A DNA stretch of 40,497 nucleotides, taken from NCBI GenBank assembly GCA_017453465.1, contig JAFTEV010000073.1:1-40497 (forward strand), in the 5' to 3' direction. Numbering within the stretch: position 1 is the first letter of the stretch; each line of letters begins with the position of its first letter. Both the position numbers and the translations under genes were made by a program. Source of the DNA: Bacteroidaceae bacterium. Lineage in GTDB: Bacteria > Bacteroidota > Bacteroidia > Bacteroidales > Bacteroidaceae. The notes under the pieces were generated by a model that was not told the DNA's origin, did not search any database, and saw only the letters and a list, made by a program, of their open reading frames with translations. Of the stretch, positions 18,029 through 32,156 are shown one piece after another.

Positions 18029-18631
18029 ATGTCGGAGACGAACAATATAGATGGAATGAATGCCTTTCAGCGAGCACTGAAACGAATGGGTGACATTCTG
18101 GGTGCTGCCGTGTTGCTCGCGCTATTCCTTCCATTTTTCATTTTACTCATTATTATATATAAGGTGACGGGCGGTGGCCCCGCTTTCTATACACAGGAGC
18201 GCATCGGGCTGCATGGTAAGCCCTTCCAGATATACAAGTTCAGGACCATGGTGGTGAATGCCGAGAAGGAGGATGTCCCTGTGCTGGAACAGCCCGACGA
18301 TGTGCGGTTGCTGAAGTACGGGAAGTTCATGCGCAGTCACCACATTGACGAATTGCCACAGCTCTTGAATGTGCTTCGTGGCGATATGTCTTTTGTGGGC
18401 TACCGTCCTGAGCGACGCTATTTTATAGATAAAATCATGGAGGTCAACAGGGACTACGAACTGCTGTTTGTCAGTCGTCCGGGCGTTACGTCGCTGGCCA
18501 CCATTCGCAACGGATATACCGACACGCTGGACAAGATGCTTCGCCGGCTGGACTACGACCTTGACTATCTGCGCCATCGTTCACTCCTGCTCGACTGGAA
18601 GATTATCTTCGAGACCGTGTTCAGCATCTGA
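18029..18631 (+). CDS. Priming sugar-phosphate transferase (bacterial sugar transferase family)
   Basis: This membrane enzyme attaches the first sugar-1-phosphate to undecaprenyl phosphate. The 200-residue protein is the short form: one hydrophobic re-entrant segment (about 22-44) and the cytoplasmic catalytic domain. QERIG (56-60), KFRTM (70-74), HHIDELPQLLNVLRGDMS (from 104) and GYRPER are the family signatures; the catalytic Asp-Glu pair is in DELPQ. It is the first gene of the polysaccharide locus, consistent with the initiating step. The sugar donated cannot be read from sequence. Confidence 0.93.
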   Translation: MSETNNIDGMNAFQRALKRMGDILGAAVLLALFLPFFILLIIIYKVTGGGPAFYTQERIGLHGKPFQIYKFRTMVVNAEKEDVPVLEQPDDVRLLKYGKFMRSHHIDELPQLLNVLRGDMSFVGYRPERRYFIDKIMEVNRDYELLFVSRPGVTSLATIRNGYTDTLDKMLRRLDYDLDYLRHRSLLLDWKIIFETVFSI

Positions 18632-18684
18632 TTCGTTGCCCCCGTCTCTGTATTTAACATTTATCGCATAACTCATACATCATT

Positions 18685-21099
18685 ATGTTCAAGAAGATTC
18701 TTGTAGCTGCATTCATTTCCCTGACTCCGCTGTTTGTGGATGCTCAGTCTATGACTGATACGCAGGTTGTCAATTACATTCAGAAGGAACAGGAGCGAGG
18801 CACCTCGCAGCAGCAGATTGTTGTGAATTTGATGAAGCGCGGCGTGACAACAGCCCAGCTGCAACGCATTCGCCAGAAGTATCAGCACCAGCAGCAGGAA
18901 GTGACGGCTGTAGATAACACGACGACGAAGGAGAACGTGGAGGAAGAAGTAGATGTGTTCTACAGCGACTCGCTGGGCTATGAAGAAGATGACACAAGGG
19001 CCGAGGAGCGTGTATTTGGACGCAACATCTTCAACAACAGGCGTCTCACCTTCCAGCCCAACCACAATATGCCAACGCCGCAGAACTACCGCCTGGGTGC
19101 AGGCGACAATGTGGTGATTGAGGTGTGGGGCGCATCGCAGCAGACCTACAACAAGACCATCTCGCCCGACGGCACTGTGACCATCGAGGGTGTAGGCCCC
19201 GTGAAGTTGGCTGGCCTCTCGGTGAGCCAGGCCAATGCCGAACTGAAATCTACGCTGGGCAAATACTACAGCGCATCGAACATCCAGCTCACCGTCGGCG
19301 GCACCCGCTCCATCCAGGTGCAGGTGATGGGCGAGGTCCGTGTGCCGGGCACTTACACGCTGAGTTCGCTCTCTTCTGCCTTCAATGCACTCTATTCTGC
19401 CGGAGGCATCAACAACGTGGGTACTTTGCGCGACATCAAGGTGTATCGTGGAGGGCGCATCATTGCCACGATTGACGTATATGACTACATCCTGACAGGC
19501 AATTCGTCGGGCGATGTCCGCCTGCAAGACAATGATATTATTGTCGTTGGCCCCTACGACTGCATTGTGGCCGTGCGCGGTAGTGTCAAGCGTCCGATGT
19601 ACTACGAAATGCGCAAGTCGGAGTCTGTGGGCACCCTGCTGAAGTATGCGGGCGGATTCACGGGCGATGCCTACAAGAAGAGCGTCACACTGACCCGCAA
19701 GTCGGGGGCTACTTACAGCATCCACACCATTGATGAGTTCCAGTTCAACAACTTCACCGTTGACGATGCCGACTCGGTGTTTGTCGGAGCCACTTCCACA
19801 GAGTTTGCCAACAAGGTGGAAATCCGTGGAGCCGTAGAACGCCCCGGTGAGTTTGAAATCGGCACAGGCGTGAGCACCGTGAAGGAACTCGTTGCTGCCG
19901 CAGGCGGACTGAAGACGGATGCCTTCACCACCCACGTGATGATTCACCGCCACAAGCCCGACATGACGCTGGAAGTCATCAATATGGACATAGCAGCCCT
20001 TGTGAACGGCACTGCCCCCGACATCCCCTTGCAGAAGTACGATGTGCTCTTCATCCCCAGCAAGAGCGACATGCACGCCGACGAGGTTCTGAGCATCATC
20101 GGAGCCGTGCGTTTCCCCGGCGCATACAAGTATGCTGACAACACCACCCTTGAAGACCTCGTGCTTCAGGCCGGTGGCCTCACGGAGGGTGCTTCCACGG
20201 TGAAGGTTGACGTGAACCGCCGCATCAAGGATCCCACTGCCACCGAGAAATCAGCCCAGCTGACCCAAAACTTCACCTTTGCGCTGAAGGATGGCTTTGT
20301 GATTGACGGCGAGCCGGGCTTTGCGCTTCAGCCATTCGACCAAGTCATTGTGCGCAACAGTCCTGCCTTCCACCGTCAGGAGAACGTGATTATTGACGGT
20401 GCAGTCAACTTTGAAGGTACTTTCGCCTTGTCGAACAAGAACTATCGCCTGTCCGACCTGGTGAAGGATGCAGGCGGACTGACGAATTTTGCATACGCCA
20501 GAGGCGCACGCCTGAAGCGCATCCTGAGCGAGGAAGAACGAATTACACGTGTTAACACTATTCGTGCCCAGCACATAGGCTTCATCGAGGATGCCCTCAA
20601 GGGCGGCAGTGATTTCAACAAGGAAATGATTGACTCGCTCAATTCGCTCAAGACCAACCAGGGTTCCACTTACCTCGTGAGCATCGACCTTGAGGAAGCC
20701 CTGAAGAACCCAGGCGGCGAGGCTGACATCGAAATGCGCGAGGGCGATGTGCTCTATGTGCCTCAATATTCAAGTACGGTGAAGATTTCGGGTGCTGTAA
20801 GCTACCCCGTGTCAGTCCTCTACAAGAAGGGAAAGCCGCTGAAGTACTACATCCAGCACGCAGGAGGCTTCGACGACAATGCCAAGAAGAATCGTGTCTA
20901 TGCAGTGAACATGAACGGCACCGTGGCTAAGCTGAAAAAATCTTCGAGCAAGGGCATTGAGCCAGGCTGTGAGATTTACGTGCCCACCAAGCCTATCAAG
21001 CAGAACAAGATGAGCACCTCCGAGATGCTCAGTATTGGTTCGACTTCAGCCTCCGTAGCCAGTGTGATTGCTGTCATTGCTAATTTGTTGAAGAAGTAA
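18685..21099 (+). CDS. Outer-membrane polysaccharide export protein with multiple SLBB domains (Wza-like)
   Basis: The 804-residue protein has a signal peptide (cleavage near residue 20, FVDAQ). A Gln-rich helical section follows (about 25-75), then a Poly_export domain from about residue 130 (YRLGAGDNVVIEVWGASQQ). A series of about five or six SLBB-type beta-grasp domains follows, each with a phrase such as GEVRVPGTYTL or GAVERPGEFEI. A C-terminal hydrophobic segment (about 780-800) probably spans the outer membrane. It is roughly twice the length of E. coli Wza, as usual for Bacteroidota. It should form the periplasmic and outer-membrane export channel with the Wzz protein encoded 15 nt downstream. 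Confidence 0.9.
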   Translation: MFKKILVAAFISLTPLFVDAQSMTDTQVVNYIQKEQERGTSQQQIVVNLMKRGVTTAQLQRIRQKYQHQQQEVTAVDNTTTKENVEEEVDVFYSDSLGYEEDDTRAEERVFGRNIFNNRRLTFQPNHNMPTPQNYRLGAGDNVVIEVWGASQQTYNKTISPDGTVTIEGVGPVKLAGLSVSQANAELKSTLGKYYSASNIQLTVGGTRSIQVQVMGEVRVPGTYTLSSLSSAFNALYSAGGINNVGTLRDIKVYRGGRIIATIDVYDYILTGNSSGDVRLQDNDIIVVGPYDCIVAVRGSVKRPMYYEMRKSESVGTLLKYAGGFTGDAYKKSVTLTRKSGATYSIHTIDEFQFNNFTVDDADSVFVGATSTEFANKVEIRGAVERPGEFEIGTGVSTVKELVAAAGGLKTDAFTTHVMIHRHKPDMTLEVINMDIAALVNGTAPDIPLQKYDVLFIPSKSDMHADEVLSIIGAVRFPGAYKYADNTTLEDLVLQAGGLTEGASTVKVDVNRRIKDPTATEKSAQLTQNFTFALKDGFVIDGEPGFALQPFDQVIVRNSPAFHRQENVIIDGAVNFEGTFALSNKNYRLSDLVKDAGGLTNFAYARGARLKRILSEEERITRVNTIRAQHIGFIEDALKGGSDFNKEMIDSLNSLKTNQGSTYLVSIDLEEALKNPGGEADIEMREGDVLYVPQYSSTVKISGAVSYPVSVLYKKGKPLKYYIQHAGGFDDNAKKNRVYAVNMNGTVAKLKKSSSKGIEPGCEIYVPTKPIKQNKMSTSEMLSIGSTSASVASVIAVIANLLKK

Positions 21100-21114
21100 A
21101 GAAACTTGCAGATT

Positions 21115-22203
21115 ATGGAAGAAAACAAGAATAATTCCGAAGTCATTGACTTGCGCGAGGTCTTCAAGACTCTCTGGAACAAGAAGATGCTATTCATCAA
21201 GGTCTGGATAGTCACATTCATCCTGGCTTGTGCCTACATTCTGCCCATCCCTCGCACCTACACCTCCGAGCTTTCGCTGGCTCCAGAGCTGGGTAGCCAG
21301 ATGACAGGCGGTGGATTGGCTTCTTTGGCAGGTTCTTTTGGCATTGACTTGTCGAGTATGCAGGCCGAAGATGCGTTTTATCCTTTGCTATATCCCGATG
21401 TGGTTTCCTCTAACGAGTTTGTTGTACGCCTCTTTGATGTGCGTGTCAAATCGCTGGATGGGGAAATAGATACTGACTATTACACCTATTTGACCCAACA
21501 CCAAAAAGCGACGTTCTATAGAGTGCCTATCAATTGGGTGAAGAGGCAGATTAAGAATCTCCTTGAGGAGAAAGAAGAGAGACCTTCCGCAGGTGACGGC
21601 AAAATCAATCCGTTTATGATGACGGAGAATCAGGATAAGGTTGCCAAAGCTGTGAGTGCCAATATCTCGTGTGATGTTGACATCAAGACAAACGTGATAA
21701 CCATCAGTGTCGTTGATCAAGACCCGCTGATTTGTGCTACCATGTGTGACTCTGTGCGTGTACTCCTGCAGGATTTCATTACGAAGTATCGCACCAACAA
21801 GGCGAGCATTGATGTGGAGCACTATCAGGCTTTGCTTGATGAGGCTGAGAAGGATTATAATAAGTCTGTTGATGCTTACAGTGCTTATTGCGATGCACAT
21901 AAGAACTCTATTTTGCAGTCTTATCTTTCGGAAAGAGACAAGCTCGAAAACGATATGGCTGTAAAACTGAACGTGTATAACACGATGAGCAGTCAGCTGC
22001 AAGCCGTGAAATCTAAGCTTCAGGAGCGCACGCCTGCATTCACACAGCTTCGCGGTGCTTCTGTCCCCATTAAAGCCACAGGCCCTAAGCGCATGATTTT
22101 TGTAGCGGCAATGCTTTTCCTTGCTTTCTGGGGGACGTGTCTGTATATCTATCGTAAGGAAATAATAGAACAGCTTGTAAATCCAGCCTCCAAAAAATCC
22201 TAA
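21115..22203 (+). CDS. Wzz-type chain-length determinant / polysaccharide co-polymerase
   Basis: The 362-residue inner-membrane protein has two membrane helices (about 25-45 and 326-346) enclosing a periplasmic domain with a coiled-coil region (about 225-315). It controls polymer length and couples to the export channel. No cytoplasmic tyrosine-kinase domain follows the second helix, so it is not a BY-kinase fusion. ATG 21115 is chosen over the in-frame TTG at 21106. The DLREVFKTLWNKK start is typical of Bacteroidota Wzz proteins. Confidence 0.9.
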   Translation: MEENKNNSEVIDLREVFKTLWNKKMLFIKVWIVTFILACAYILPIPRTYTSELSLAPELGSQMTGGGLASLAGSFGIDLSSMQAEDAFYPLLYPDVVSSNEFVVRLFDVRVKSLDGEIDTDYYTYLTQHQKATFYRVPINWVKRQIKNLLEEKEERPSAGDGKINPFMMTENQDKVAKAVSANISCDVDIKTNVITISVVDQDPLICATMCDSVRVLLQDFITKYRTNKASIDVEHYQALLDEAEKDYNKSVDAYSAYCDAHKNSILQSYLSERDKLENDMAVKLNVYNTMSSQLQAVKSKLQERTPAFTQLRGASVPIKATGPKRMIFVAAMLFLAFWGTCLYIYRKEIIEQLVNPASKKS

Positions 22204-22243
22204 TTACAAGCGGCTTCTTATTGTTGTCTTCTTATTATAAACA

Positions 22244-23545
22244 ATGAAGCTCGATAATATTTTTCTGATACGTAAAAATGCAATAGACAGGCTCTTTCTG
22301 TTCCGGAAGATAGACTTTGAAAGTCTTTTGACCATACAGAAGGTAGATGTAGTACGTTGGGTGTTCTATTTTGGAATGCTCATCGTTTACTATGCATCTA
22401 TGACTCCTTGGTTTCTGTGGCGAATTTATTCCTATTTCCCGCTGTTTGCCTTTTTCCCGATAGTGCTCAGTATGTTGCTGTCAAGAGGTTTGAGCACACC
22501 GCTTTTTACCCGAAAGGACTATATTTATCCTACGGTGGCATACTTCTTCTTGATTTTTACGGTAGTCATCATCAATGGGCGCAATGCCTTTGCCTATATA
22601 TTCATGGTGTTTAATCTCACCATATTCTTGTCTGTGTTTAAGTTGAATATTGACGAGCTGGACAGGCTGGGGACTTTCTTGGCAAAGAGTATGGGCTGCT
22701 TGCTGGCAGTGTCCATACCTTTCTATCTGCTCTATTTGGTGGGTTTCCCTATACCTCATTATCATCTGGTTAATCCTGATTTCGATTATTCGTATGAGAA
22801 CTATCGTTTTTTTCTGATAGACGACCGTTCCACCTTTGAATTGGTGCCGCGTTTCCACTCTGTCTTTCTGGAACCTTCGCATCTTGGTATGGCCTGTATC
22901 TCTTTGCTGTTTGCTCAGATAGGTAAATGGAGAAGGTGGTACAACATTGTGCTGTTTGTAGCACTGATTCTCACCTTTTCGCTTGCAGCCTATGTGTTCC
23001 TGGTCATCATGCTGTATTCTGCCAGCTGGATGAAGGGGAAAGCGATTATCGCAAAATTGATGATGTTGGGAGGGCTGTGCCTTGTTGTGGTCGTAGCCTC
23101 CTTATTCTACAATAAAGGTGACAATCTCGTCAATCAGCTGATTGTGCAACGTCTGACCATCAATGAGGATGGAAAGCTGGAAGGCGACAACCGTGTTTCA
23201 TCTATTTTTGAGAGGGAGTATGACCAAATGGCATCTTCGAGCGAAATACTGGTTGGGCGTGGAAGCGAGAGCATGAAAAAGTTCGGCTTCGGAAATGCTG
23301 GGTATCGCGTCTATATCTATAGCAATGGTCTGATTACGGTCTTTGTGCTTATCATCTTTTTTGCAGTTGTCGTCAGTACAAGCCGAAACACTAAAGCCAA
23401 AATAGTCATGCTGCTGGTACATGCCATTTCTTTTATCCCCCATGCGGTGCCAGTGAAACAAAGTTTTTTCATACCCCTCTATATCATGCTGTTTATAACC
23501 ATTAAGCAATCAGAAGAGAAACAACAGGAAAGTAAAGAAGCATAG
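22244..23545 (+). CDS. Wzy-like polysaccharide polymerase (O-antigen ligase/polymerase-like)
   Basis: The 433-residue protein has about 10-12 membrane helices and a large periplasmic loop in its second half (about 290-360). It contains RFHSVFLEPSHLGMA before a helix, as in many Wzy proteins. Position between Wzz and the flippase supports the role of joining repeat units. The family diverges strongly in sequence, so the assignment rests on topology and context. Base composition is AT-richer than in the rnf genes, as usual for variable polysaccharide genes. Confidence 0.75.
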   Translation: MKLDNIFLIRKNAIDRLFLFRKIDFESLLTIQKVDVVRWVFYFGMLIVYYASMTPWFLWRIYSYFPLFAFFPIVLSMLLSRGLSTPLFTRKDYIYPTVAYFFLIFTVVIINGRNAFAYIFMVFNLTIFLSVFKLNIDELDRLGTFLAKSMGCLLAVSIPFYLLYLVGFPIPHYHLVNPDFDYSYENYRFFLIDDRSTFELVPRFHSVFLEPSHLGMACISLLFAQIGKWRRWYNIVLFVALILTFSLAAYVFLVIMLYSASWMKGKAIIAKLMMLGGLCLVVVVASLFYNKGDNLVNQLIVQRLTINEDGKLEGDNRVSSIFEREYDQMASSSEILVGRGSESMKKFGFGNAGYRVYIYSNGLITVFVLIIFFAVVVSTSRNTKAKIVMLLVHAISFIPHAVPVKQSFFIPLYIMLFITIKQSEEKQQESKEA

Positions 23546-23546
23546 A

Positions 23547-25070
23547 ATGGAACCAGCCAAAAGAATTATATTGAATACATCTGTACAGTATGTCCGTTCC
23601 TTCATATACATGGTGCTGACACTGTTTTCTACGCGCTTTATCTTGAGTGCGTTGGGGCAGTCGGACTTCGGACTTTATTCTGTCATTGGCAGTATTGTGA
23701 TGATGCTGGGTTTCATTACCAGTTCGCTGGCCAGCAGCACACAGCGTTTTTTGTCTTATACGCATGGCTTGGATGACAAGCAGGAATTGCGACACATCTT
23801 CAGCAATGCCTTGCTTTTGCATGTTACTATTGCTCTGGTTCTGGTCCTGTTGATGGTGGTGATAGAGCCTTTTATGATGAACTATTTGCGCATACCCGCA
23901 GGAAGGCTGGAGGCTGGTGTCTTTGTTTATTATATGGTGACCATTATGATTGCCATGACCTTTATCACATCGCCGATACGTGCGCTGTATATTGCCCGTG
24001 AGAACATTGTTTACGTTTCCGTTGTAGAAGTGACAGATGCCGTCTTGAGGTTGGTCGGGGCCATCTCTCTTGCCTATATCTCTTGGGATTCGCTCAAGGT
24101 CTATGCCTTTTTGATGTCTTCCTTGTCTGTCTTCAATCTGCTTGTTTACATGATTTATGCAGGGGCAAAATATGATGAGTGTCATTTCCCCCGGATAGAA
24201 GAAATAAAGAAAGCATACTTGAAGAAACTTACGGGATTCGCCGTCTGGAATGTCTATGCTGTTGGCTCCACCGTGTTGCGGACACAGGGCTTGGCCATTA
24301 TCATCAATCGCTTCTTCGGCACCGTTGTCAACGCTTCCTACGGCATTGCTCTTCAAATTTCCCATGCTATCAGTTTCATTGCCCTCTCAATCTTGAACTC
24401 TATCAATCCGCAGCTGATGAAGGCAGAAGGGCGAGGTGACAGAAAACAAATGCTGAAGTTGGCAACGATGGAGAGTAAGTATTCCTATATGATTCTGTCT
24501 TTAGTGCTGATACCAGTCATGATAGAGATACCCCAGATATTGATGTTCTGGTTGGGCCGAGTGCCTGAATATGCAGTGGAGTTTTGCACCTGTATTGTCC
24601 TTGCCTTTATTCTCGACCAGTCCACCATAGGTCTGACTTCAGCCAACCAGGCAATAGGCCGAATCCGCAATTATACCTTGCTGGTCAGCACAATCCGTCT
24701 GATGATATTGCCAGCATCGTGGATTTGTCTTTATATAGGCTATCCTGCTCACTCTGTGATGATTGTGTATATCATATTTGAACTGCTTTGTGGAGTGGTT
24801 CGTATTCCGTTCTTGAAATATACAGGCGGACTGGACGTGAAGGATTATTGCCGAAATGTCTTTTTGAAAACATTGCTTCCCATCATAGGTAACATTGTAG
24901 TCTCTTATGCCATTTCGCAAAAGCTTGACATCCCTTATCGGTTCATCCTGACAGAGTGTGTGGGTGTAAGCGTAGGAGCGGCTTTGATTTACCTGTTTGC
25001 ACTGTCTGCTGCAGAAAAAGAGTGGCTCAATCATTTGATAAAAACCAAAGTGCTGAGACGTATATCATGA
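23547..25070 (+). CDS. Wzx-like lipid-linked oligosaccharide flippase (MATE/MOP superfamily)
   Basis: The 507-residue protein with 12-14 membrane helices starts MEPAKRIILNTSVQYVRSF and contains TRFILSALGQSDFGLYSVIG, a typical Wzx beginning. It would flip undecaprenyl-linked repeat units to the periplasmic face. It starts 1 nt after the polymerase stop and overlaps the next gene by 4 nt (ATGA), indicating tight translational coupling. Confidence 0.88.
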   Translation: MEPAKRIILNTSVQYVRSFIYMVLTLFSTRFILSALGQSDFGLYSVIGSIVMMLGFITSSLASSTQRFLSYTHGLDDKQELRHIFSNALLLHVTIALVLVLLMVVIEPFMMNYLRIPAGRLEAGVFVYYMVTIMIAMTFITSPIRALYIARENIVYVSVVEVTDAVLRLVGAISLAYISWDSLKVYAFLMSSLSVFNLLVYMIYAGAKYDECHFPRIEEIKKAYLKKLTGFAVWNVYAVGSTVLRTQGLAIIINRFFGTVVNASYGIALQISHAISFIALSILNSINPQLMKAEGRGDRKQMLKLATMESKYSYMILSLVLIPVMIEIPQILMFWLGRVPEYAVEFCTCIVLAFILDQSTIGLTSANQAIGRIRNYTLLVSTIRLMILPASWICLYIGYPAHSVMIVYIIFELLCGVVRIPFLKYTGGLDVKDYCRNVFLKTLLPIIGNIVVSYAISQKLDIPYRFILTECVGVSVGAALIYLFALSAAEKEWLNHLIKTKVLRRIS

Positions 25071-25825
25071 AACTGCGAATAATAGACACCATTTTGTTCA
25101 ATATAAGAGCTTTTGGATTTCGTCAAGGGCTAAAACTTCCTGTGTATATATACGGGAAGGTTAAGTTCTATCAGATTGGTAAAATAGAAATACATTGCCC
25201 CTTGAAGCGGGCTATTGTAATTATAGGCATGAATGCTCATGACACATCAGCCCCCTACAGCATCTTCAACAACCAGGGTACGATAGAGGTTCACGGTCGT
25301 GTCTATTTGCATCATGGAAGCCGATTGACCAACAAGGGGCGAATCGTTTTTGGCGCTAACAACATTTTTAGTCACAACACAGAGTTTGATATCAAAGAGC
25401 GGATTGAATTCGGACATGATGTTTCTGTTGGTTATCAATCTGTTTTTACGGACTCCGATGTGCACTACTCTGTAGATGTATCCACCCGTCGAGTTTATAG
25501 GAACACAAAGGCTATTCGGATTGGCAATTACAATTGGTTTGGCAGTCACACGTATGTGAAGAAAGGGACTGTTACACCAGATTATACGATGGTGGCATCT
25601 CCGAATGCATTACTGTCGAAAGACTACAGCAATCTGCCTCCTTATACAGTGTTGGGAGGATGTCCTGCCCGTCCCATAAAACAGGGACTTCGCCGTGTAT
25701 ATAAATTCCGTTCAGAAAATGCCATTCGCGACTTTTTTGCGGATAATCCCCATGCAGAGTATTATTCTATTGTTGATGATATGGATTTGGACGATTTTTG
25801 CAAATTATTTGATATTCCTCAATGA
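25067..25825 (+). CDS. Left-handed beta-helix (hexapeptide) acyltransferase
   Basis: The 252-residue cytoplasmic protein has hexapeptide repeats from about residue 65 to 200 (for example FGHDVSVGYQ), ending with VLGGCPARPIK. It probably acetylates a sugar of the repeat unit. A C-terminal helical extension of about 45 residues follows the beta helix. ATG 25067 overlaps the flippase stop (ATGA), and its own stop overlaps the next start in the same way. The upstream frame extension is the flippase in another frame. Confidence 0.82.
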   Translation: MKLRIIDTILFNIRAFGFRQGLKLPVYIYGKVKFYQIGKIEIHCPLKRAIVIIGMNAHDTSAPYSIFNNQGTIEVHGRVYLHHGSRLTNKGRIVFGANNIFSHNTEFDIKERIEFGHDVSVGYQSVFTDSDVHYSVDVSTRRVYRNTKAIRIGNYNWFGSHTYVKKGTVTPDYTMVASPNALLSKDYSNLPPYTVLGGCPARPIKQGLRRVYKFRSENAIRDFFADNPHAEYYSIVDDMDLDDFCKLFDIPQ

Positions 25826-27000
25826 AAGTAGCATATATTACTAACAGTTCTCGCAACTTGGGCGGTGCGACCAAAGCCCTGCTCCAGCTTATTGAGAAGC
25901 TTGCTGAAAAAGGCGTAGAACCCATTATCATACTGCCCGATTCTAATGGTATTTATCATGAACTGAAAGAAAAGGGAATCAAGGTTTACGCTCTTGAGTA
26001 CAGAATGAATATATACCCCCCACTGCGTGGCATTAAAGATCTGCTGTTCTTTATTCCCCGTTCAGTAGGACGCTATTATTTGACGCGAAAGGCTGCGAGT
26101 CGCTTGGCTGGTATTCTGAAATCCAACGGCGTTCAGCTTGTCCATGCCAACACAAGTGTTGAGGAGATTGGGCGGTTGGCAGCTGAGCACCTGAAAATTC
26201 CTCATGTCTATCATGTCAGAGAGTATGCTGACAAGGATTTCGGGATGCACTATATTCCGTCAAAAAGCTATATCCATGCCAAAATGAGGGGAGGCAATAC
26301 AATTTGCATCACCAAGGGAATACAGCACTATCATGGACTGGACAGGCTTCGTGGAGCGAAGGGAAAATCACTTGTCGTATATGATGGAGTATTGCCAGTG
26401 CAGGACGAGCCCCAATATTCTGATGCCGGAACCTATTTCCTCTTTGCTGGGCGTGTAGAAGCAGCCAAAGGATTGGACTTCCTTTTGCGTGGCTATTCAC
26501 AGTATGCAAAATCTGTACAATCTCCGCTTCCGCTAAAAATTGCGGGTGGGCTGAATCGCAAAGAATATCTGGCAGAACTCCAAGACTATGTCCGTGTGAA
26601 TGGCCTGGAGCAAAGCGTGGAGTTTCTGGGGCCCCGCAGTGACATCTTCGACTTGATGCGCGGTGCTAAAGCCATCATCGTCGCATCCTCTTTCGAAGGC
26701 TTTGGATTCTGCACGGCAGAAGCAATGTTTAATGGTTGTTTGGTGATTGGCCGTGACTTGACAGGCACAAATGAACAGTTCGACAATGGTCTGAAAATGC
26801 ACGGCAAAGAGATTGGTCTGAGATACAAGACTACCGACGAACTGGCTCGAATCCTGCAAGAGGTGGATACTTCTTCCGACGACAAGTATCTTGAAATGAA
26901 AAAACGCGCTTTTGCAACGGTCAATACCCTTTACACCTCTGGTCATTCTGCACAGCAGGTATATGAGTTCTATAAATCAATACTGATGGGGCGTGAATGA
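25822..27000 (+). CDS. GT4-family glycosyltransferase of the polysaccharide locus
   Basis: The 392-residue GT-B enzyme has N-terminal TNSSRNLGGATKALLQL, the HANTS segment, and C-terminal ASSFEGFGFCTAEAMFNG with the EX7E-type motif. It transfers a sugar to the lipid-linked intermediate in the cytoplasm. It is the only recognisable dedicated glycosyltransferase in the locus apart from the priming enzyme. Coupled to the preceding acyltransferase by an ATGA overlap. Confidence 0.88.
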   Translation: MKVAYITNSSRNLGGATKALLQLIEKLAEKGVEPIIILPDSNGIYHELKEKGIKVYALEYRMNIYPPLRGIKDLLFFIPRSVGRYYLTRKAASRLAGILKSNGVQLVHANTSVEEIGRLAAEHLKIPHVYHVREYADKDFGMHYIPSKSYIHAKMRGGNTICITKGIQHYHGLDRLRGAKGKSLVVYDGVLPVQDEPQYSDAGTYFLFAGRVEAAKGLDFLLRGYSQYAKSVQSPLPLKIAGGLNRKEYLAELQDYVRVNGLEQSVEFLGPRSDIFDLMRGAKAIIVASSFEGFGFCTAEAMFNGCLVIGRDLTGTNEQFDNGLKMHGKEIGLRYKTTDELARILQEVDTSSDDKYLEMKKRAFATVNTLYTSGHSAQQVYEFYKSILMGRE

Positions 27001-27063
27001 GTTAAGCCAATACTGGTGGCAGCGTGTAAAACCATATAACCGCAAAGCCGTAAAACCGCAATT

Positions 27064-27696
27064 ATGTACAAGCTATTAGATAAATTGATTTGCCTATTGG
27101 CAACAACACTGCATTTCGTTTGGAACTTCCACTGCTATTCTGTCTTGCTAATTTGGAAAAGAAAGTTCTACACAGCCTGGATTTCCAAAGAATTTGCAGC
27201 ATGTGGTAAGCAGAGCAAGTTCTACGGATTTAAAGCTCTTTATGGTGCAAAATACTGCACAATAGGGAGCGGTGTCAGAGTGGGGGCGGATGTGGTCTTA
27301 GAAGTATATGACCGATACATGGATCAGCATTTCAATCCACACTTTTCTATAGGCAACGACTCCTGCATCGGTGACGATAGTCATTTGACTTGTATCAATG
27401 AAATCAGAATTGGCAACAATGTGCGCATGGGCAGGAAAATCTTCATTACCGACAATGCTCATGGAGCCTCCGACCCCGCACTTCTGGATATACGTCCCAA
27501 CCTGCGTCCGATGGTGAGCAAGGGCCCTGTGATTATAGAGGACAATGCTTGGATAGGTGAAATGGTGTGCATCATGCCTGGAGTAACCATCGGGCGGGGT
27601 GCCATCATCGGAGCCAACGCCGTAGTGACCAAGGATGTTCCGCCCTACAGCCTTGTGGGTGGAAACCCCGCAAGGGTTATCAAACAGCTGCGATGA
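27064..27696 (+). CDS. WbbJ/NodL-like hexapeptide acetyltransferase
   Basis: The 210-residue protein has a hydrophobic N-terminus (about 5-30), hexapeptide repeats, and the active-site region ITDNAHG with a His typical of maltose/galactoside acetyltransferase relatives. The end reads GAIIGANAVVTKDVPPYSLV followed by GGNPARVIKQ, very characteristic of the family. It probably O-acetylates the polysaccharide precursor using acetyl-CoA. The 63-nt gap before it is filled with AACCGCAAA/CCGTAAAACC phrases. Confidence 0.88.
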   Translation: MYKLLDKLICLLATTLHFVWNFHCYSVLLIWKRKFYTAWISKEFAACGKQSKFYGFKALYGAKYCTIGSGVRVGADVVLEVYDRYMDQHFNPHFSIGNDSCIGDDSHLTCINEIRIGNNVRMGRKIFITDNAHGASDPALLDIRPNLRPMVSKGPVIIEDNAWIGEMVCIMPGVTIGRGAIIGANAVVTKDVPPYSLVGGNPARVIKQLR

Positions 27697-27733
27697 CCGC
27701 CCAACCGTAAAACCTCACAACCACAAAAACCGC

Positions 27734-29131
27734 ATGAGACTACTTTTGTTTAATATCTTGTTACTTTGTTCCGTCCTGCTTTCCGCTGCTGAGCCTCTTG
27801 TCCTGACACAGGCTATGATAGACAAGGCTGGGGGACAACTGACTGTGTCTTCCGACTACACCCTGAAGGGGGAAACCATCGTCCTGCCCCAAAAGTTCAG
27901 ACTGGTATTCAAGGGCGGAACAATGGCGGGCGGAGTACTGCAAGGCAACCAGTCGGTCATCAAGGCGGAGGCAGACAAGCAGATTTTCGGACCAGGGCTG
28001 CAAATTAAGGGTACATGGAACATCGCCAATATCTACGATACATGGTTTATTTTTGATGAAAGGAAAACCTTTGTTTCCAATCAGATAATCACAAACATTC
28101 TTGCCCTGGCCAGCGACAATGTGAAGAACCACATCTATTTTAGGGCAGGGCGAACCTATTATTTTGAACTGCCCTATAAAGGCCGGGGCGACTTTGGAGA
28201 AATGTTTTCCTACAAAATGGTGGATGGCAAGAAGAAAGTGAATTACGGAGAAGTTTATGATGACAAGTATTCCTATCTGCGCATCTTTACCATTCCATCC
28301 AACACACACGTCACCATTGACTGCACCCTGCAGATGTTGCCTACAAATATCGGTGCATACTTTGTGTTTTGGGAGAAAGACAAACGCAACGTGACGGTTG
28401 ACGGCAGCGGCAGAGTGAGTGCAGACAACAGCGTCCATGTCTTCGACAACCCTTATCGTGGCAAGAATTACTACGGCGAATGGGGCTTCATTTTCAATTG
28501 CATCCGATGCAAGAACTTCACCTTCCGAGACATTACCCTGACCGATGCCTTTGGCGACTGCCTGATATTTCGAGGTTCGTATAGCAAGGGGGACACCTCT
28601 CCCCGGTATGCCGAAGGTTTGACAATGGAGAACGTGAAGATTCTTCGTGCACGCCGTAATGGACTGACGGTCGCTGCCCGTAATTGTACGATAAGAGATT
28701 GCAGATTTGAAAAATGCGGTAAGGTCAATGGCACACTCCCCAAGTCTGCCGTCGATTTTGAAGCCGACAACCTTCAAGACTATCCCGAGCTGGAAAATCG
28801 AGATGTCCTGCTTGACAACTGCGTGTTTGTTGACAATGTTCGCGACATAGCATCATCGAACAATGCCACACTGGAGTACGGACAACCGGCAACCGTCATA
28901 TCGAATTGCGTTTTCTCTAACCCGCTGAAAATTTGCTGGGCTTATTGGCTGAAGTTTGACAATTGTACCATTACATCCCTTATTGGTCCCAATGGCGCGG
29001 AAATCAGTGGCGGCAATTGGGTGAAAAACGTGTCGTTCAGCAATTGCAATATCAAGTCTATGCCTCGGATTCTTCAGACAAAGTCTTGGAACAATAAATT
29101 TATTAATTGTAAAATAGAAAATTTAAAATAG
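27734..29131 (+). CDS. Secreted right-handed beta-helix protein (pectate-lyase-like fold)
   Basis: The 465-residue protein has a signal peptide (about 1-18, LLLCSVLLSAAEP). The rest shows parallel beta-helix rungs: GTMAGGVLQGNQSVI early, then NFTFRDITLTDAFGDCLIF, MENVKILRARRNGLTVAARN and CTIRDCRFEKC. It could cleave or bind the exported polysaccharide, as lyases in such loci often control chain length. No catalytic triad can be assigned, so the activity is unknown. ATG 27734 is chosen because it begins the signal peptide; the upstream extension is acetyltransferase sequence in another frame. Confidence 0.8.
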   Translation: MRLLLFNILLLCSVLLSAAEPLVLTQAMIDKAGGQLTVSSDYTLKGETIVLPQKFRLVFKGGTMAGGVLQGNQSVIKAEADKQIFGPGLQIKGTWNIANIYDTWFIFDERKTFVSNQIITNILALASDNVKNHIYFRAGRTYYFELPYKGRGDFGEMFSYKMVDGKKKVNYGEVYDDKYSYLRIFTIPSNTHVTIDCTLQMLPTNIGAYFVFWEKDKRNVTVDGSGRVSADNSVHVFDNPYRGKNYYGEWGFIFNCIRCKNFTFRDITLTDAFGDCLIFRGSYSKGDTSPRYAEGLTMENVKILRARRNGLTVAARNCTIRDCRFEKCGKVNGTLPKSAVDFEADNLQDYPELENRDVLLDNCVFVDNVRDIASSNNATLEYGQPATVISNCVFSNPLKICWAYWLKFDNCTITSLIGPNGAEISGGNWVKNVSFSNCNIKSMPRILQTKSWNNKFINCKIENLK

Positions 29132-29136
29132 TGATT

Positions 29137-30768
29137 ATGAATTCAAATTCAAGACCCCATTCCGAAGCTCTCAATCTTTTACGCTTCCCCTTAGCGCTTG
29201 TTGTTGTGCTTGTACATGTTGTGGGTGCAGGCATCCCCAATCGTGAAAGTTATATGGAAACAAGTCCTCCTTTTGCGGAAGTACTGAATTTTATCAAGGC
29301 TTTTCTGAGTGGTCAAAGTGTGCCTATCTATTTTTTGATTGTATTAATGTCATACCTTTGCGTACTTTCTGCCCATGCCCAGAGGGTAGATATGGACGCA
29401 CTTTGGAACATCAACATACCTGTACTGCGCATCACCACACAGAATGGCGAGGAACCGACCTGCGACTACGTCCACTCCCCCGGCGGCCGTTCCCGTTCCA
29501 TTGCCAATGCCGTGCAAGTGCCAGGCCGAATGGTCATCACCCAGAAACGCGACACCCTCTACGATAGCGGCCAATACGCCGAGGGCAAGTCGGGGATGAC
29601 AATAAAGATTCGCGGCAACACCAGTGCTTATACCCCTAAGAAGCCCTTTAAGCTCAAGTTGCAGAAAAAGGCCGACTTGCTGTTTAGGGACTCGAAGGAC
29701 TACCGTGACAAGAACTGGGTACTGCTCAAGATGGGCAATACTCTGAATACTGCCATCGGCAATTTTGTGAATGAGAAGACAGGACTCCGCTGGACACCAA
29801 GATACCAGTTTGTCAATCTGGTCATCAATGACGACTACAGGGGACTGTATTACCTTTCGGAAAATGTACGAAAATCATCTACCCGCATCAACGTTGACGA
29901 TACAGGCTACATTTTTGAATATGATGCCTATTACTGGAAAGACTCGCTCTACGTTAAGAGTTTCTTTGCGAGCAATATGGGCTATACCCTGAAATATCCC
30001 GAACCAGAAGAAATCTCACCCGCAGCCTATGCCTATTTTCAGGACATGATTCCCCAGATGGAAAGGGCGATGGTATCTGGCAAATACGACGAAATGCTAA
30101 ATGTCGAGACTTTCGCTCAATGGATTTTAGCCCACGACATATTGGGCACCGATGATGCGTTTGGCTCTAACCTCTACTTTACAAAGTACGACCCTTCTCC
30201 CAACTCCAAAATCGAAATGGCCAACTTGTGGGACTTCGATTCAATCTTGAAGACAAGCTACGATGCGTGGGGAACTTCCCACACCAGCGGAGCTTTCTTC
30301 CCCTACTACATGTTCAGGAAAGGTGACAGTATGCTTCGGCACTATTATTACCGGTGGAGACAACTGCAGCAAGACGACTTCTTCTTGCAGCTCTATGACT
30401 TCTTGGACAGTTTCCTGTCCCCAGAAGTCTGTGAAGACATAGACAAATGCAGGCAAATGGACGCCGCACGCTGGGGAAGCAGATTTAAAGCAATTTCTCA
30501 AGAAGTCGCCGACGCCAAAACATACTTTGCCAACCGCGAAGTATGGTTGACCGACACCATTGCATCCATGGGGAAACAACTCACCCCAAGGCTAGGCGAC
30601 TTAGACAACGATGGCCTCTTGACCACAGCCGACATCACTCAACCGATAAGTCTCTACCTGAACCATTCCGATACAGATGCGGTAGAGGCCTTTACCGACA
30701 TTACGGGCGACGGTAAGCTGACGATTATCGACATAACAGAACTCATTACAATGTTTCTGAATCAGTAA
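29137..30768 (+). CDS. Chimera: acyltransferase-3 N-terminus fused to CotH-like kinase with dockerin-like tail
   Basis: Residues 1-68 look like the start of a membrane acyltransferase-3 protein ([20 protein letters not shown], then QSVPIYFLI). The sequence then passes in frame into [13 protein letters not shown], the end of a signal peptide, and a complete CotH-family domain (about 82-480). CotH signs are [43 protein letters not shown] and WDFDSIL. CotH proteins are secreted atypical protein kinases. The C-terminus (about 487-543) has two dockerin/EF-hand-like repeats, [12 protein letters not shown] and [12 protein letters not shown]. An internal ATG at 29347 (residue 71) could start the CotH part alone with a shortened signal. 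About 280 codons of the acyltransferase are missing. Confidence 0.8.
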
Positions 30769-30812: not shown

Positions 30813-32156
30813 ATGAGAGATTTTCAAAACATCAAGATTGCTGTGGCCGGCACGGGCTACGTGGGCCTCAGCATTGCCACACTGCTGGCACAGCACCATG
30901 AGGTGGTGGCTGTGGATGTGGTGGAAGAGAAAGTGAACCTGATTAACCAGCGGAAGTCGCCCATTCAGGACGAATACATCGAGAAGTATCTGGCAGAGAA
31001 GGAACTGAACCTGCGTGCCACGCTGGACGGCAAGGAGGCTTATCGCGATGCAGACTTTGTAGTCATCGCAGCCCCCACGAACTACGACCCCGTGAAGAAC
31101 TACTTCGACACGAGCCACGTGGAGGAAGTCATCGACCTCGTGCTGGAGGTCAATCCCGATGCCGTGATGGTCATCAAGAGTACCATCCCCGTGGGCTATT
31201 GCCGCAGCCTCTACTCTAAGTACGCCATGAAGTTCCTGGCCAATCCTAACTTGGCGGGCAAGAAGTTCAACCTGCTTTTCTCGCCCGAATTTCTGCGCGA
31301 GTCGAAGGCACTGTACGACAACCTGTACCCCAGCCGCATCATCGTGGGCTACCCCAAGCTGATTCAGAACGCCGACTACGCCAACGAAAATGCCGCTATC
31401 GAAGCCATTGCTGGGCCGAACCTGGAACACGCTGCCCACACCTTCGCCAAGCTCTTGCAGGAAGGTGCCCTCAAGCCCGAAATCGACACCCTCTTCATGG
31501 GCATGAAGGAGGCCGAGGCCGTCAAGCTCTTTGCCAACACCTACCTGGCCCTGCGTGTCAGCTACTTCAACGAACTGGACACCTACGCCGAAGTGAAGGG
31601 ACTCGATGCCAAAGCCATCATTCAGGGCGTTGGACTCGACCCCCGCATTGGTTCGCACTACAACAACCCCTCCTTCGGCTACGGCGGCTACTGTCTGCCC
31701 AAGGACACCAAGCAACTCCTGGCCAACTACCAGGACGTGCCGCAGACCATGATGTCGGCCATCGTCGATTCCAACCGCACCCGCAAAGACTTCATTGCCG
31801 ACCGCGTGCTGCAGATGGCAGGCTACTACAACTACACCAACCGCATCCGCTGGAATCAGAACGAAGAGACGCAGGTGACCATCGGCGTGTTCCGTCTCAC
31901 CATGAAGTCCAACAGCGACAACTTCCGGCAGTCCTCCATCCAGGGCATCATGAAGCGCATCAAAGCCAAGGGAGCCACCGTCATCATCTACGAGCCCACG
32001 CTGGAAGACGGCACCACCTTCTTCGGTTCCCGTGTGGTCAACAACCTGGCCGACTTCAAGGCGCAGAGCCAAGCCATCATCGCCAACCGCTACGACTCCT
32101 GCCTCGACGACGTGCAGGACAAAGTCTATACAAGAGATATTTTCAGGAGGGATTAA
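30813..32156 (+). CDS. ugd: UDP-glucose / UDP-sugar 6-dehydrogenase
   Basis: This 447-residue cytoplasmic enzyme oxidises a UDP-hexose to the uronic acid with two NAD+. The Rossmann motif GTGYVG is at 13-18. The catalytic Cys is Cys294 in [33 protein letters not shown] matches short UDP-glucose dehydrogenases. ATG 30813 gives the motif at the normal place; the upstream extension is repeat-like AATTGTCC sequence. GC content is higher than in the preceding variable genes, suggesting a conserved core gene at the edge of the locus. It ends in a terminator overlapping the stop codon. Confidence 0.93.

Follow-up and report, generated by a model that had tools for sequence, protein, structure and literature searches.

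Closest described systems

Among described proteins, those closest in layout to the gene presented here are the AT3-SGNH proteins OatA, OafA and OafB, in which an N-terminal acyltransferase-3 (AT3) domain is followed by another hydrophobic segment and then by an enzymatic domain (PMC9558356, PMC7448272, PMC9833829). The available portions of these papers describe the loop between transmembrane helices 1 and 2 (TMH1 and TMH2) of AT3 proteins as periplasmic, and indicate that AT3-SGNH proteins need an 11th helix, after the 10 helices of the AT3 domain, in order to place their C-terminal partner outside, in the periplasm. As far as two of these partial sources go, the R-X10-H residues of TMH1 are essential in OafA, and an RXXR motif is found in TMH3 (PMC7448272, PMC9833829). 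The most common partner of AT3 domains is SGNH, with alanine racemase second, and the word kinase is absent from the main text of the review as available (PMC9558356).

The second relevant system is the CotH kinase of Bacillus (5jd9; PMC7821199). In the accessible part of that source, the D228Q and D251A variants of CotH are reported to be catalytically inactive. CotH genes have also been described in or beside Pel clusters of Gram-positive bacteria (PMC7112168) and in the sfz stalk cluster (PMC8250860), according to the sections of these papers that were at hand. A literature search of partial coverage for CotH together with an acyltransferase (Prevotella; polysaccharide biosynthesis, kinase) or with PorZ found no such report.

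The gene studied here occupies positions 29137 to 30768 of a stretch of 40,497 nucleotides from a Bacteroidaceae bacterium, which we call the window. Like OatA, OafA and OafB, it begins with AT3 sequence and continues, past another hydrophobic segment, into an enzymatic domain. However, it retains one complete helix in place of their 10 plus an 11th, and its partner is a putative kinase. It shares with Bacillus CotH the CotH domain and equivalents of the two catalytic aspartates, but it lies in a bacterial surface or exopolysaccharide setting and also has a dockerin and an AT3 remnant. A polysaccharide or stalk setting is what it has in common with the Pel and sfz CotH genes, although the cluster types and hosts differ.

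The exopolysaccharide locus and its counterpart in a related genome

The genome that contains the gene (G000) is represented by a single MAG, a 3.16-Mb bin of 108 contigs that is 84.97% complete with 6.04% contamination. Immediately upstream of the gene (27635..29131, + strand) is a gene for a secreted protein that looks by eye like a beta-helix protein and is without a Pfam match; 5 bases separate its stop codon from the ATG at 29137. A possible relative of this upstream gene, the beta-helix neighbor in locus L062, was set aside because the match is weak (34 bits over 61 residues). Downstream (30813..32156, + strand) is a UDP-glucose/GDP-mannose dehydrogenase gene. The rest of the locus (18029..27696, + strand), as assigned with Pfam, encodes a sugar transferase, a Poly_export/SLBB protein, a Wzz protein, a putative polymerase (no Pfam match), a MatE-like flippase (below the cut-off), a protein that Pfam leaves unassigned, a group 1 glycosyltransferase and a hexapeptide transferase.

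The initial annotation had pointed to related strains as a place where a separate AT3 gene might stand at this position. Such a gene is indeed present in a genome of the same genus (G004), which carries an intact 383-aa AT3 protein (P0002) in the same exopolysaccharide locus. Between the loci of G004 and G000, identity amounts to 87% for the export gene (over the 500 residues compared), 66% for the Wzz-type gene and 94% for the dehydrogenase, which is also downstream of the AT3 gene in G004.

In two other exopolysaccharide loci, a CotH gene that has a signal peptide of its own lies near the export and Wzz-type genes (L038:3831-5300, L060:7917-9338), and the presence of CotH in exopolysaccharide loci is therefore recurrent.

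One open frame with an AT3 start and a CotH-dockerin remainder

According to the ORF listing and translation, positions 29137 to 30768 (+ strand) form a single uninterrupted frame of 543 codons without a stop. A mechanical ORF start is the GTG at 29131 (545 aa), while the natural-looking start is the ATG at 29137 (543 aa). In order, the product comprises AT3 residues 1-68 (29137..29340), the final 13 residues of a signal peptide (V69-A81; 29341..29379), the N-terminal part of the mature CotH protein, which precedes the Pfam match and is conserved in relatives (29380..29601), the CotH kinase domain (29602..30549) and a Dockerin_1 module (30592..30756). The identities of both halves exceed chance. 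The open frame, the Pfam matches and the AT3 identity to G004 together bear out the initial annotation's proposal of an in-frame chimera between an acyltransferase start and a CotH-dockerin protein.

We assign the AT3 identity of residues 1-68 independently of Pfam, because the intact AT3 protein of G004, a full Acyl_transf_3 member (93.4 bits), shares 68% identity with residues 3-70 of the 545-aa mechanical ORF. Pfam itself matches residues 11-68 to positions 3-54 of the 326-position Acyl_transf_3 profile (PF01757) with 16 bits, which is under the cut-off of 31. A profile of 11 AT3 sequences, from which the 543-aa gene was left out, matches the AT3 part with an E-value of 8.4e-20. The fragment corresponds to the first fifth of an AT3 gene and contains TMH1, a loop expected to be periplasmic and the first part of TMH2. 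The R/K-X10-H motif expected of AT3 members is present in TMH1 as R16...H27, but the complete 10-helix domain with the RXXR motif of TMH3 is lacking, as is a Pfam score over the cut-off. When G000 was searched with the intact AT3 protein at E-values up to 1, the fragment was the sole match, and the remainder of the AT3 gene was not found in the assembly. With TMH1 and R-X10-H kept, and with TMH3-10 and the RXXR motif of TMH3 gone, the AT3 half is predicted to be dead.

From V69 on, the protein can be aligned to the final part of CotH signal peptides and to full-length CotH sequences; the CotH part has 34-45% identity to its nearer relatives. Pfam places the CotH domain (PF08757) at residues 156-471, with 74.4 bits against a cut-off of 23.8 and with the whole profile covered (1-322/322). 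Searching the PDB with one sequence alone gave no CotH match, but a profile of 14 CotH proteins did match Bacillus CotH (5jd9, E 4.5e-07). In the 5jd9 profile alignment, inspected by eye, D340 (30154-30156) and D366 (30232-30234) correspond to D228 and D251 of B. subtilis CotH, the spacing of these aspartates in 5jd9 being 23 residues. Both D340 and D366 are invariant in a 13-sequence alignment (A1). The CotH half thus keeps its domain and both of the predicted catalytic aspartates.

Most of the complete CotH relatives begin with an ordinary signal peptide of their own, while other N-terminal extensions occur in L008/L024, L059, L064, L073 and L074. We also considered that residues 1-68 might be the normal N-terminus of CotH proteins, which the initial annotation had named as an outcome that would refute its reading. 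This idea was rejected, as the AT3 piece occurs in no CotH relative whose N-terminus is visible; the N-termini of a few relatives, e.g., L069, are out of view because contig ends cut them.

In a Q-rule test for Sec export and signal peptidase I, a hydrophobic core and an A-x-A/Q-type site (...VLSAHA/Q) were present. Comparison with complete CotH proteins suggests that signal peptidase I would cleave between A81 and Q82. The available text of one study describes an N-terminal Q after signal peptidase I cleavage as typical of Bacteroidetes (PMC5837995). However, a basic n-region before the core was lacking: there is 1 K/R here versus 2-5 in the nine fusions described below, and the core is preceded by TMH1 and the outer loop.

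The initial annotation described a full CotH domain with two dockerin-like repeats. The CotH domain is confirmed, and the two repeats amount to one Dockerin_1 match (PF00404, residues 486-540), which is marginal at 23 bits versus a cut-off of 22.9 (27.7 bits in the genome search). G000 (L130-L152, L161-L164) has 20 Dockerin_1 matches over the cut-off, two of them on identical stretches, C4 and C85, and by eye many of its dockerins are at the extreme C-terminus of large secreted proteins. The same genome has five Cohesin matches over the cut-off and a sixth under it, in a short protein that also bears the best dockerin match (L164:2354-2875). Cohesin matches over the cut-off occur in 13 of the 45 genomes of the genus, and G004 and G000 have six each if matches over and under the cut-off are taken together. 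The cohesins and dockerins of G000 may form a cohesin-dockerin system, or the dockerin-like tails may serve as surface modules.

Position and uniqueness of the joint

In an ungapped comparison, codon identity with the AT3 gene of G004 ends at I68 (codon ATT, 29338-29340) and is at chance level from V69 (29341). This comparison puts the AT3 edge of the joint at 29340/29341, a few bases of microhomology being allowed for. The edge is inside the interval 29330-29347 in which the initial annotation had placed the joint. No long repeat marks the joint, and none is found at 29330-29347. A repeat-mediated or invertible joint was ruled out, given the lack of a repeat and the single AT3 N-terminus of this type in G000.

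We searched for further instances of the joint using residues 1-130 as the query and three genome sets that partly overlap. Matches were obtained in 7 of 45 genomes of the genus and 30 of 399 genomes of the family, where both counts include the gene's own genome, and in 51 of 398 genomes of another group, centered on G450. Apart from the 543-aa gene itself, none of the matches in these sets (45, 399 and 398 genomes) contained both halves. Some of them overran the joint through hydrophobic sequence, AT3-side matches extending as far as residue 97 and CotH-side matches starting as early as residue 48; such cases were judged by frame length and query range, and G399 alone was inspected directly. 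The G399 match (3-97), a candidate for a second joint, proved to be a usual AT3 gene that the end of its contig interrupts. Also rejected were G453, whose match goes back to residue 315 of P0004 and which by eye has no AT3 upstream, and G599, a 725-aa frame whose upstream part looks by eye like wrong-frame sequence. A scan of genome contigs with the full protein yielded 17 loci, none of which has the joint (L069 is cut before its N-terminus), and the exact 29-base joint pattern had zero matches in viral contigs.

The fact that the joint is in no second assembly, among the genomes and viral contigs searched, raises the concern of an assembly artefact, in which the MAG would join the AT3 gene of one strain to the CotH-dehydrogenase segment of another strain in a variable locus. 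Capsule-type loci differ between strains, and the number of contigs and the contamination of the bin are compatible with such an error. However, the joint is in frame and inside one hydrophobic segment. The longest exact word that the 81-base joint region shares with the rest of the window, the G004 locus and 25 other loci is 14 bases, an indirect measure, since the loci compared may not be the parental sequences. A word of 14 bases is shorter than the usual k-mers of assemblers. The bin also has no alternative allele, its only other CotH gene being a distant paralogue on C24, and both halves fit the same genome. We consider an artefact somewhat unlikely.

A proposed local deletion as the origin of the gene

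The explanation that we favor, with a confidence slightly above even, is that the 543-aa gene is a recent and largely inactivating rearrangement, i.e., a local deletion derivative, in a variable polysaccharide locus. In the ancestral locus, the beta-helix-like gene and the dehydrogenase gene would have flanked two genes, one for an AT3 protein like that of G004 and one for a CotH-dockerin protein. Illegitimate recombination or a deletion would then have removed the AT3 sequence from residue 69 to its end, together with the start codon and the signal-peptide n-region of CotH. The missing parts are observed, while the parental order and a single event are what we infer.

Several findings argue for a deletion. 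There is the intact AT3 gene at the G004 locus, the remaining AT3 sequence was not found in G000, and the codon edge at 29340 is sharp. Most relatives have a CotH protein that starts with its own signal peptide, and the fusions have a more basic segment than the single K/R here. G000 has a single CotH copy of this type, with its catalytic aspartates kept. Moreover, both halves suit G000: the nearest AT3 gene is from the same genus and the same locus, and the dockerin is one of the 20 over the cut-off.

Other findings argue against it. The frame has neither a stop nor a shift, which a dead gene could soon gain. Full-length AT3-CotH fusions exist elsewhere, so that selection for such a joint is conceivable. 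An AT3 gene of the window's type was not seen directly beside a CotH gene in the same orientation. Finally, the gene is from one assembly only, which is 85% complete.

The initial annotation had proposed a deletion that joined two neighboring genes. The in-frame join inside a signal-peptide-like segment and the intact, separate AT3 gene at the same place in G004 agree with this proposal, while prior adjacency of the two genes is a putative element of it. No CotH match was found in the 12 loci retrieved through an intact AT3 gene of the window's type (L021, L022, L026, L027, L043-L045, L047-L051), several or most of which have a flank of only about 1.5 kb or less. In L065, an AT3 gene of the window's type is 4.2 kb beyond the CotH gene, and similar AT3 genes are, by eye, near CotH in L107 and L111. 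We regard it as plausible that the parental AT3 and CotH genes were neighbors.

Predicted topology and fate of the product

The signal remnant is fused onto the first half of TMH2, directly after the loop between TMH1 and TMH2, and the resulting hybrid helix has a mean hydropathy of up to 2.06 (residues 61-79). If translation begins at 29137, TMH1 would cross the membrane outward, and the hybrid helix (about residues 60-81) would have to cross it back inward. Given the AT3 topology in the literature, CotH would then stay in the cytoplasm, with the AHA/Q site on the wrong side of the membrane. CotH could be exported only if TMH1 did not insert or if translation began at a weak internal codon, GTG 29320 or TTG 29335. 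The acyltransferase is thus probably lost, and there is probably little or no CotH export unless one of these exceptions applies, because the signal remnant follows one helix and a loop expected to be periplasmic and would have the wrong orientation.

The segment 29320..29349 (+ strand) contains three candidate internal starts, namely GTG 29320, TTG 29335 and ATG 29347. CotH could still be secreted normally if translation began at GTG 29320 or TTG 29335, the AT3 part being a leftover leader; this possibility is compatible with a deletion. A start at GTG 29320 would give a signal peptide of 20 residues up to AHA/Q, which is about the usual length in relatives. However, a signal peptide from either codon would have no basic n-region, and by eye there is no recognizable ribosome-binding sequence. 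In addition, the ATG at 29137 looks translationally coupled, given its short distance from the upstream stop. We judge normal secretion from an internal start to be unlikely.

Natural fusions of CotH in other genomes

We collected CotH fusions from the scan of genome contigs and from a search with one of its hits, in which 360 of 398 genomes had a match and two candidates were scored per genome. A complete AT3 and a CotH domain occur in one frame in at least four genomes: L061:6924-9320 (G451, 798 aa), L065:6957-9359 (G450, 800 aa), L107:6354-8774 (G512, 806 aa) and L109:3398-5746 (G580, 782 aa), with the L107 gene inside a 2.69-Mb contig. The order in these proteins is a complete AT3 domain, a basic tail, a signal-like helix and CotH. 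All four keep R-X10-H in the AT3 domain, and the L107 and L109 proteins align over nearly their whole length with 29% identity.

The 543-aa gene resembles these fusions in its N-terminal AT3 part, its C-terminal CotH part, and its in-frame connection through a signal-like segment that keeps an ...A/Q site. However, a complete AT3 domain (Pfam 2-325 of 326 in the four fusions) and the basic tail before the signal segment are found in them and not in the 543-aa gene. The AT3 domains of L061 and L065 do not match the AT3 profile of the window's type. The four genes lie beside porZ-type genes and not in an exopolysaccharide locus. Their proteins end in a G-Y-I-x-x-G-K-K-like tail, which we take to be a T9SS sorting tail (Pfam names no such domain), while the 543-aa protein ends in a dockerin. 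A regular-expression count of T9SS-like tails, 27 of 48, is too strict, as many of the misses end by eye in similar motifs; L089 and L098 were counted as having none, though by eye they have dockerin-like repeats at the end. The initial annotation's suggestion of a new architecture does not hold as worded, given the four full-length fusions, whose topology the 543-aa gene lacks.

CotH is also joined in frame, via a signal segment, to PMT_2-type membrane proteins (L087:1498-4215 in G796, L094:1498-4269 in G487 and L099:115-2850 in G728) and to GT2-like cytosolic proteins (L106:4049-6160 in G452 and L115:2434-4443 in G765), where GT2 was recognized by eye and the Pfam glycosyltransferase matches are sub-threshold. 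The L115 fusion has a lipobox-like LTAGC in mid-protein, and no W[DE]xD motif was found in the three PMT-type fusions. All nine fusions have 2-5 K/R before the hydrophobic core (L087 and L099 share the same segment), and the residue after the presumed cleavage site, placed by eye, is Q in five, E in two, I in one and a lipobox C in one.

These fusions bear on the possibility that the 543-aa gene is a shortened relative of the full-length AT3-CotH proteins and still functions, either as a tethered fusion or as a polyprotein. It would then be expressed from the AT3 start, with CotH either anchored by the helices or released at AHA/Q. The retained internal signal segment in four full-length proteins, one of them inside a very long contig, and the same Q-rule-type site are points in its favor. 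However, the AT3 subfamily and the locus are different, and no second genome has the joint. Furthermore, TMH1 is the only complete helix, so that the expected orientation would be reversed, and the basic stretch before the signal core is missing. We find such a functional fusion quite improbable. The AT3-CotH fusion occurs intact elsewhere, and for the 543-aa gene, derivation by deletion is the best reading.

AT3 and CotH genes are also found as unfused neighbors downstream of a porZ-type gene, in L108, L110, L111, L112 and L113 (on opposite strands in L113). In L105, an AT3-CotH pair overlaps, with no porZ in the stretch examined; in L070 and L071, a porZ-type gene is followed by CotH without AT3; and in G451:C30, an intact AT3 gene overlaps an intact CotH gene. 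PorZ was identified by Pfam only in L061 and L111, and by position and sequence likeness in the others, including L065, L107 and L109. Among the matches listed, 12 genomes have one separate AT3 match and one separate CotH match, and the two lie within 60 bases of each other in 4 of them (G627, G631, G636, G664), the others being G501, G521, G568, G628, G629, G646, G657 and G776. In genomes of 2.6 Mb and more, this is far above chance, but as the genomes are related, it should be taken as an indication.

The neighborhood is itself recurrent: YitT-like, rdgB-like and porZ-type genes are followed by AT3 and/or CotH, and often by a nadA-like gene (L105, L107-L113, L061, L065, L070, L071). These gene names were given by eye, except for AT3, CotH and, in L061 and L111, PorZ. 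The neighborhood suggests a T9SS- or A-LPS-linked role of AT3 and CotH.

Implications

The recurrent intact fusions are more interesting than the 543-aa gene. Taken together (AT3 in four genomes, PMT_2 in three and GT2-like in two), they lead us to a tentative idea, possible but doubtful, that the CotH signal peptide is a recurrent fusion hinge in Prevotella-type bacteria. CotH genes that retain this peptide would have been attached in frame, time and again, to the 3' ends of genes for glycan-modifying enzymes. Signal peptidase would cut the resulting polyprotein in two, releasing a kinase for export and leaving an enzyme in the inner membrane or the cytosol. That the 543-aa gene itself works as a polyprotein is highly improbable. 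If the polyprotein idea is true, the two partners of a surface-glycan module would come from one gene, which in the AT3 fusions lies beside a T9SS gene, and the 543-aa gene would be a trimmed member of the CotH fusion series. The fusions with an internal signal peptide offer a simple test of polyprotein delivery of an inner-membrane enzyme and an exported partner.

As a probable deletion derivative, the 543-aa gene illustrates how a single step may cost a polysaccharide locus its acyltransferase and perhaps also stop a kinase from being exported. In several genomes, AT3 and CotH genes near porZ-type genes are either fused or adjacent, which points to a putative shared role in the modification of surface glycans or of T9SS-anchored material.
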